From the NCBI GenBank assembly GCA_903847915.1, contig CAINEW010000009.1, forward strand, positions 1-46,943: a stretch of DNA of 46,943 nucleotides. The letters are read 5' to 3'. A program made the translations under genes and the position numbers. The notes under the pieces were generated by a model that did no database searches, had not been told where the DNA came from, and saw only the letters and a list, made by a program, of their open reading frames with translations. Positions 18,720 to 34,396 of this stretch are shown piece after piece; position 1 is the first letter of the stretch, and every line of letters starts with the position of its first letter. The stretch is from an uncultured bacterium. Lineage in GTDB: Bacteria > Patescibacteriota > Minisyncoccia > UBA6257 > GWB1-50-10.

Positions 18720-18759
18720 TTAATTTTTTAGATTTCTTTTATATTCAATCCCCCTTGTG

Positions 18760-18954
18760 TGTAGCTCCAAGGGGAAGTTCACTACTCGCTCGCATACGCT
18801 GACTGCGTTTTGAAACCCATCGGTTTCAATGCCCGCCCGAACGTACCCCGCCAGAATGATTTGTCGGGCTGGCGTTCGGTGCGGGCAGGCTTCCGCTACG
18901 GGGAAACCTAACTTTCCCCGACCCTCTTCCTCGGTTCAATTCCCCTTTCCGCTT
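18760..18954. repeat. Hairpin-rich segment bounded by a copy of the tRNA-Glu 3' end
   Basis: TGTAGCTCCAAGGGGAA occurs at 18760-18776 and again, 194 bp on, at 18954-18970 inside tRNA-Glu. Between them are consecutive hairpins: TTGAAACC/GGTTTCAA (18810-18829), a 13-bp stem GCCCGCCCGAACG with its partner at 18873-18886, and GGGGAAA/TTTCCCC (18900-18919). A 15-bp inverted copy of the T-arm (18933-18947) faces the tRNA. No coding capacity is apparent. The segment is much more G+C-rich than its surroundings. Confidence 0.6.
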
Positions 18955-18955
18955 G

Positions 18956-19026
18956 TAGCTCCAAGGGGAATTGAACCCCTGTTACTGCCGTGAGAGGGCA
19001 ATGTCCTACCACTAGACGATGGAGCC
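18956..19026 (-). tRNA. tRNA-Glu (CTC)
   Basis: The minus strand folds as a cloverleaf: acceptor GGCTCCA/TGGAGCT (first pair G-U), D-stem GTCT/GGAC with AGTGGTA loop, anticodon stem TTGCC/GGCAG around CTCTCAC with anticodon CTC, and T-stem AGGGG/CCCCT with TTCAATT. The discriminator is A and CCA is not encoded. It follows murF by 56 nt on the same strand. Confidence 0.93.
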
Positions 19027-33147: not shown

Positions 33148-34396
33148 CTTGTATCTCCTTCTTTCCTACAAATTCTTGGAGGGCTTTGGGGATTTTGACT
33201 GTGCCGTCTTTTGTTTGATTGTTCTCAATAATCGCTAGAATAGGGCGCTGGGAAAAGGCGGTAGCGTTTAACATATGCACCAATTCTTTTTTACCTTTTT
33301 CTGTTTTATATTTGGTGTTTACCCCCCGTGCTTGGAAATCGGTAGTGTTGGAGCAGGAGTGCGTTTCGCGATATTTTCCTTCTGCAGGGAACCATGCCTC
33401 AATGTCGTATTGGCGCGCGTCTGTCCACCCCATATCGCCCGTGCAGACCTCTACTACACGATACGGCAATTCTAATTTTTGCATTAATTCTTCTTGAAGT
33501 GAGAGAAGAAACTGATGCTCTTCCTCTGATTTTTCCGGCGTGGTGAATGAAAAGAATTCTACTTTATCAAATTGATGTACGCGCAAAATGCCTTTTGTGT
33601 CTTTTCCGTATGTTCCCGCTTCGCGGCGAAAACAGGTTGAAAATCCGATGTATCTGCGCGGGAGCGATTCTTTTTCTAGCACTTCTCCTCTATGTAGTGG
33701 TCCCATCGTATGTTCCGCGCTTCCTATGAGATAGAGGTCGTCTTTTCCTAAATGATAGCGCTCTTCTTTTTGATCGCCTGCCAAGCGCCCCATTTCTTCA
33801 TACACTTCTCCGCGGATCATGACCGGCGGAATCACTGGAATAAATCCGTGCGGGAGTGCCACGTCGTAGGCAAGGCGCACAAGCGCGAATTCCATAAGCG
33901 CCGCTTCGCGCATCAAATACCCGAAACGACTTCCGGTAATCTCTCCCGCTTTTTTGGTGTTGATTAATCCTAATTCTTCACCTAATGAAAAATATTCTTT
34001 TGGTGTAAAATCAAATTCCGGCTTTTTTCCCACTTCGCGAAGTATCTTATTTTCTGTTTCGTCTTTTCCCACAGGAACATTTACAAAAGGAACGTTGGGA
34101 ATTTTTTCAAAAAGTTCTTTGCGCTTATGTTCTAATTTTGTATATTCCTCTTCAAGCTCGCTTACCCGTTTTTTTAAAATTTGTGCTTTACTTAAGAGCT
34201 CTTCGGTTTGTCCGCGCGCGAGCTCTTTATTGACGAGATTTTGATCGGCTTTTAATTGATCTAACGCGACAGTTTTTGCCCGCCATTCTTCGTCTATACG
34301 AAAAAGCTTGTCCACAAGCTTCGGGTCGCATTTCTTCTTCGCGACGGCCTCCTTTACCATCTCGGGATTCTCCCGTATGAGCTGTATATCTACCAT
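33137..34396 (-). CDS. serS: Seryl-tRNA synthetase
   Basis: A class II synthetase that charges tRNA-Ser. The N-terminal 110 residues form the tRNA-binding coiled coil (LDQLKADQNLVNKEL, LEEEYTKLEHKRKELF); the core has FSTCFRREAGTYGKDTKGILRVHQF (motif 2), the serine-site CSNTTDFQARG, and LNATAFSQRPILAIIENNQ (motif 3). At 419 aa the length is normal. The stop codon lies within an 11-bp repeat array, and a second array in inverted orientation lies about 50 bp upstream of the start. A TAAGAT hexamer 6 nt before the ATG suggests a leaderless transcript. Confidence 0.97.
   Translation of the reverse strand: MVDIQLIRENPEMVKEAVAKKKCDPKLVDKLFRIDEEWRAKTVALDQLKADQNLVNKELARGQTEELLSKAQILKKRVSELEEEYTKLEHKRKELFEKIPNVPFVNVPVGKDETENKILREVGKKPEFDFTPKEYFSLGEELGLINTKKAGEITGSRFGYLMREAALMEFALVRLAYDVALPHGFIPVIPPVMIRGEVYEEMGRLAGDQKEERYHLGKDDLYLIGSAEHTMGPLHRGEVLEKESLPRRYIGFSTCFRREAGTYGKDTKGILRVHQFDKVEFFSFTTPEKSEEEHQFLLSLQEELMQKLELPYRVVEVCTGDMGWTDARQYDIEAWFPAEGKYRETHSCSNTTDFQARGVNTKYKTEKGKKELVHMLNATAFSQRPILAIIENNQTKDGTVKIPKALQEFVGKKEIQGIQ

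Follow-up and report, generated by a model that had tools for sequence, protein, structure and literature searches.

What separates a transfer RNA (tRNA) gene from a second copy of its own 3' end? The question is raised by a locus in the window, the whole 46,943-nt stretch of DNA that we analysed (positions 1 to 46,943 of the forward strand of contig CAINEW010000009.1, assembly GCA_903847915.1), which belongs to the 624 kb genome of an uncultured bacterium of the Patescibacteriota. Here the end of a tRNA-Glu gene is repeated downstream, with a cassette of hairpins between the two copies. The repeat marks one copy of an apparently undescribed family of tiny mobile hairpin elements, which occur across the ultra-small Patescibacteria at the ends of tRNA and other essential genes, and on balance we favour a non-autonomous element that acquires its arms by copying each target it enters.

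A repeat search confirmed the first-pass annotation of this locus, both in coordinates and in content: the 17-bp tRNA-Glu end TGTAGCTCCAAGGGGAA recurs in direct orientation (18760-18776 and 18954-18970, 100% identical, spacing 194). The inverted 15-bp copy of the T-arm (18933-18947 against 18963-18977, 100% complementary) and the strong hairpins between the repeats were also recovered, the cassette folding beyond dinucleotide shuffles on both strands (z of -3.8 on the minus and -6.1 on the plus strand). Read along the minus strand, the tRNA-Glu gene is followed by 6 nt, the inverted arm A' (18947-18933), hairpins at about 18920-18899, 18887-18830 and 18829-18810, and the displaced gene end A_R (18776-18760). 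The features of the locus are:

18955-19026, minus strand: tRNA-Glu(CTC), the target gene (ARAGORN; Rfam RF00005, 63.1 bits); the putative break point p lies before G53, between 18977 and 18976.
18954-18970, minus strand: A_L, the gene-end repeat within the functional tRNA (TTCCCCTTGGAGCTACA), from the direct-repeat search.
18933-18947, minus strand: A', the T-arm and some of the acceptor strand in reverse complement (15 nt; AAGGGGAATTGAACC), from the inverted-repeat search; target-specific in other copies.
18899-18920, minus strand: H1, the first conserved body hairpin, preceded by the conserved stretch GGAAGAGGGT(C); from the fold, covariation and covariance-model match.
18830-18887, minus strand: H2, a G+C-rich 58-nt hairpin at the H1/H3 junction, belonging to a separate dispersed family; from the fold and sequence comparison.
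18810-18829, minus strand: H3, the second conserved body hairpin (TTGAAACCGATGGGTTTCAA); from the fold and covariation.
18777-18809, minus strand: H4 region and right body end (ACGCAGTCAGCG...GAGTAGTGAAC), with a variable stem; from sequence comparison.
18760-18776, minus strand: A_R, the displaced second copy of the tRNA 3' end, which stops at the tRNA terminus; from the direct-repeat search.
18743-18756, minus strand: what may be a second, decayed A' (AAGGGGGATTGAAT), such as a tandem or an older relic would show; from the sequence.

The first-pass annotation had proposed searching for the internal hairpins elsewhere. A search of the window's own genome with the cassette returned many partial relatives, and the same anatomy was found by various tRNAs in this and related genomes. 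Since identical anatomy occurs at dozens of other loci, the pattern in the window is far beyond chance. We built a covariance model of the core (64 positions covering H1, the junction and H3) from an alignment in which inserted hairpins were removed from two rows (the window and L005); it matches the window cassette at 18927-18873. The model detected about 16 convincing core copies in the window's own genome and copies in 35 of 42 genomes of the family, 83 of 200 genomes of the order and 22 of 380 genomes drawn across the phylum, 11 of the latter lying outside the class. Among the families of Rfam 15, only tRNA reached its gathering score, and the body was unmatched. Literature searches of the open library did not find a description of such an element, although one may exist elsewhere. 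A narrow test with strict patterns or one body found nothing in viral contigs and phage records, and no autonomous, gene-carrying version was found: two adjacent copies in G294 (L345) flank unrelated genes, each at its own tRNA.

We dissected 145 copies and found a constant order: A_L (the intact gene end with its trailer, or the start region), A', then (nn)GGAA-GGGGGTC-H1-junction-H3-H4, and finally A_R. The body, GGGAAAGGGGTC-H1-(H2)-H3-H4, measures about 95 nt without H2, and the whole element about 100-200 bp without coding capacity. A' is the reverse complement of 9-20 nt at the start of the duplicated gene end. In tRNA copies it stops exactly at G53 in 58 of the 81 measured; exact identity of A_R mostly restarts 6-8 nt past G53 and ends at the annotated tRNA end, or 1 nt beyond, in 44 of 77. 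Terminators are common between tRNA and body.

A tRNA on the same strand ends no more than 160 nt upstream in 103 of the 145 copies, and these tRNAs represent 18 amino-acid types. The remaining targets, assigned by reading translated flanks, include protein genes in which the layout is the same as in tRNA copies (fusA, lepA, rpsI, rplK, rpmG, pgk and rnhA): copies lie at the 3' ends of rpsI, rplK, rpmG, pgk and fusA, and antisense at the 5' ends of fusA, lepA, rplK and rnhA. In one antisense copy in the lepA 5' end (L053, G000 C28:2614-2679), an ATG within A' seems to be a new gene start.

The relationship between arm and body is what carries our interpretation. The longest exact match of A' had a median of 11 nt to its own tRNA and a mean of 5.9 nt to other tRNAs. 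Between genomes, bodies that share a target tRNA were as distant from each other (mean 0.305) as unrelated pairs (0.306). Body distances below 0.05 were found in 7.0% of pairs from the same genome with different targets, in 0.9% of pairs with the same target in different genomes and in 0.5% of other pairs; the nearest-neighbour body came from the same genome in 39 cases and from the same target in 2. Movement within a genome is seen in G135, where identical cores stand behind tRNA-Met and tRNA-Val with different matching arms, GGAGGGATCGAAC and CCTGCTGGGATCGAAC, and likewise in G014, where one core occurs with differing arms at four tRNAs. Homing loyal to one locus is ruled out as the sole explanation, since the bodies cluster by genome rather than by target. 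Because each arm matches its own target and bodies are shared within a genome, the simplest reading of these sequences is that the body moves and the arm would be made anew at each landing.

The body is conserved as a base-paired structure. Across 102 distinct copies, 97.4% of the cells in H1 and H3 are paired and 219 cells changed on both sides in a compensatory manner, a covariation that none of 500 shuffles reached; the alignment was fitted to the model, so that these counts lean its way, and slid controls were far lower. The first-pass annotation had considered a fixed arrangement with unconserved hairpins as evidence against its proposal; we found that the arrangement varies among relatives and that strong covariation marks the conserved hairpins. 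Of the standard pairs in the body helices, 1.0% are G-U, versus 4.6% in the acceptor and T stems of tRNAs at the same loci, which hints, without being decisive, at selection on folded DNA rather than RNA.

The slot between H1 and H3 may carry an additional hairpin, which in the window is H2. The G+C richness once ascribed to the whole cassette lies mainly in this middle hairpin, and only some copies have it. H2 (noted in the window and at L002, L003, L004, L005, L006, L020 and L043) is a dispersed family of its own, found also in another genus (G020) and alone elsewhere, and was repeatedly inserted at the H1/H3 junction; in L004 it occupies the same slot in the opposite orientation.

Filled and empty sites were compared in the sister species G063 and G064. 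At rnhA, L253 carries the insertion and L289, L272 and L278 have the empty site. At tRNA-Tyr, L255 is filled, and L292 and L290 are empty; at the filled site, A_R runs into the native trailer and A_L into a different terminator. We also searched for a syntenic empty site for the window through RecQ, and the relatives recovered, of which the named ones are metagenome-assembled genomes (MAGs) of Candidatus Paceibacterota, had no tRNA near recQ. The flanks of the rnhA insertion in G064 differ from those of its sisters over about 100 bp, with identity resuming further out, which suggests that this insertion arrived by recombination with foreign DNA. As expected for recent local duplication, the flanking repeat of the fusA 3' copy L336 is exact over 75 nt and the fusA copies of G043 are identical across roughly 60 nt. 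A simple target-site duplication as the origin of A_R and A_L holds for L336, L325 and L340 and was rejected for copies with diverged ends. These data support the part of the first-pass proposal that saw a minimal integrated element at a tRNA 3' end, with a conserved mobile body and sites both filled and empty. The classical attachment-site (att) reading attached to it fails, because protein-gene ends are also targets, the arm is target-specific and genomes rich in the element can lack a detectable tyrosine integrase.

Several variant layouts were also observed. Tandem copies occur at L185, L186 and L347. In L023, L031, L205 and L173 the trailer and A' are repeated after A_R, stopping just short of the body start, as in tandem arrays with lost bodies or solo relics; intact equivalents of the possible second A' of the window follow A_R in the first three of these. 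At tRNA-Gly of G063/G064 (L260, L293), an A'-like arm and a repeated tRNA 3' end enclose a hairpin body of another kind (GCCGGAGCATGTGCC...GAGGCGAAGCC), and other body families may therefore use the same insertion mode. Several tRNAs of G000 that lack the body of the present family, such as tRNA-Gly(gcc), tRNA-Pro(ggg) and tRNA-Arg(tcg), have partial copies of their 3' ends downstream, apparently relics of similar events.

How could a constant body acquire an arm that matches each target? In our model, the body would insert close to the end of a conserved gene, at p (in tRNAs, before G53), where a nick or break would be made and the folded body would bring its two ends together. A 3' end would fold back, prime itself and copy the target over 9-20 nt as far as p; the resulting A' would be joined to the left body end, while the right body end would join the displaced gene end close to p. 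Gap repair would then duplicate the gene end downstream of p, and an enzyme would presumably act in trans. Because of this duplication the gene would stay functional, and since a short duplication restores a gene only near its end, the surviving copies would be found at gene ends. As a complete account, that is, a phylum-wide mobile hairpin DNA inserting by target copying, with a new inverted arm and a gene-end duplication produced by fold-back and a host or trans-acting enzyme, this model is tentative, and we place it slightly below even odds.

Several observations weigh against the model. The simple model is silent on the further sequence (a terminator or a new start codon) that often separates the duplicated gene end from A', and it does not explain why A_R is usually altered over its first ~6 nt. 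Some of the filled/unfilled differences between G063 and G064 are losses of the body that left A' and A_R as scars. The functional fusA start of G012 is unlike that of its relatives, and the displaced copy beside rpsG looks native; more generally, A_L and A_R of some protein-gene copies diverged at synonymous sites or look foreign (G012 fusA; pgk L140), so that horizontal recombination is needed as well. Spread by recombination that drags flanking DNA along does also occur. Finally, no enzyme was identified: tyrosine integrase (PF00589), reverse transcriptase (RVT_1) and Y1 transposase (PF01797) were each considered as the mover and rejected, since none of these profiles tracks the element. 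The searches used single protein families in incomplete MAGs, and their absences are suggestive only. The Y1 transposase of the RAYT type was found in only 4 of 14 element-rich genomes, although divergent members could escape the profile.

Among the alternatives to target copying, we first considered that A' is a guide: with the body it would form a guide-plus-scaffold RNA by which a nuclease or recombinase reaches the gene end, much as in homing. A' (9-20 nt) matches the target and has a conserved, structured scaffold immediately on its 3' side, p has a fixed place relative to A', the target genes are highly conserved and the divergent tract around the rnhA insertion resembles co-conversion. 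However, within one genome the same body occurs with different perfect guides, and bodies are not grouped by target, so this explanation needs a new guide for every move; moreover, the intact gene copy would remain a target, and inspection beside p found no common flanking motif. We regard it as unlikely.

Marginally less probable still are remnants of tyrosine-integrase elements, with the repeats as attL and attR in T-loops and a replacement gene end brought by the element. The repeat does span the T-loop to the tRNA end like known tRNA att sites, the replacement fusA end in G012 looks foreign, and both filled and empty sites exist. On the other hand, PF00589 was unmatched in the element-rich genomes G014 and G027 and elsewhere gave mostly one Xer-like match, element-free genomes included; one body type occurs at tRNAs of 18 amino-acid types and at several protein genes; and A' is newly matched to each target.

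Target-primed reverse transcription, in which a reverse transcriptase acting in trans would copy a body RNA and produce A' by template jumps, fits the geometry: one end joins close to p, the target duplication is long, the opposite end carries the target in inverted copy, and tandem arrays occur. We consider it improbable, as RVT_1 was absent from 7 of 12 element-rich genomes and gave only a sub-threshold match in the genome of the window, most copies have a body with both ends intact, and G-U pairs are rare in the body helices. Least probable of all is that tRNA transcripts are processed into a functional structured RNA, comparable to the Escherichia coli rtT RNA and as the first-pass annotation had offered in the alternative: conserved, covarying hairpins adjoin tRNAs, yet this reading is disfavoured by the antisense copies at the 5' ends of fusA, lepA, rplK and rnhA, the terminators that commonly separate tRNA from body, and a patchy presence even between sister species.

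Patescibacteria are streamlined and not usually considered rich in mobile DNA, and the element would recurrently remodel the ends of their tRNA and translation genes. Annotation pipelines may misread the duplicated tRNA ends as tRNA fragments or prophage scars. The target-copying mechanism is testable through pairs of filled and empty sites and recent intragenomic copies. Elsewhere in the window, ARAGORN called a tRNA-SeC at 34074-34150, inside a seryl-tRNA synthetase open reading frame on the opposite strand; it has no Rfam support and is probably spurious.

Repetitive extragenic palindromes (REPs) are 20-40 bp long, and CGTC-tagged repeats occur without a dedicated transposase (PMC3733652). 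Like REP/CGTC palindromes and hairpins resembling miniature inverted-repeat transposable elements, the element described here is small, non-coding, palindromic, dispersed and, as we read it, non-autonomous (PMC3733652). It may also have their tag beside a hairpin, GACG (CGTC on the other strand), a motif that a simple search found near the right end in 90 of the 145 copies. Its length and anatomy are unlike those of a REP, the two conserved hairpins, the target-specific inverted arm, the duplicated gene end and the gene-end preference being features of its own. With tRNA-targeting tyrosine-recombinase elements it shares a tRNA 3' end that is directly repeated at its two borders, running from the T-loop to the 3' end, a replacement gene end, and filled and empty sites. 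It differs from them in being about 100-200 bp and gene-free, with no integrase within it and none detected in some hosts, in having an inverted arm, and in combining one body with many targets, no loyalty to one or few att sites being seen. The element departs in a defining feature both from REP/CGTC palindromes and from tRNA-targeting integrase elements.

The guide RNAs of IscB and TnpB, HEARO RNAs and IS110 bridge RNAs have a target-matching segment beside a structured scaffold in a mobile element, as do A' and the body here; unlike them, the element has no linked nuclease or recombinase and no Rfam match, and its target-matching arm is remade for each target. At the E. coli tyrT/rtT locus, a tRNA is followed by repeat units in which its 3' end is copied, a likeness to the copies described here, which differ in sequence and do not match Rfam; we know of no tyrT/rtT repeat with an inverted arm specific to its target, nor of any movement of these repeats to other genes. 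To our knowledge, known transposable elements have fixed ends and at most a short target-site duplication. In the present family the arm differs at each locus and matches the host gene while the body stays the same, which would be an unusual insertion chemistry.
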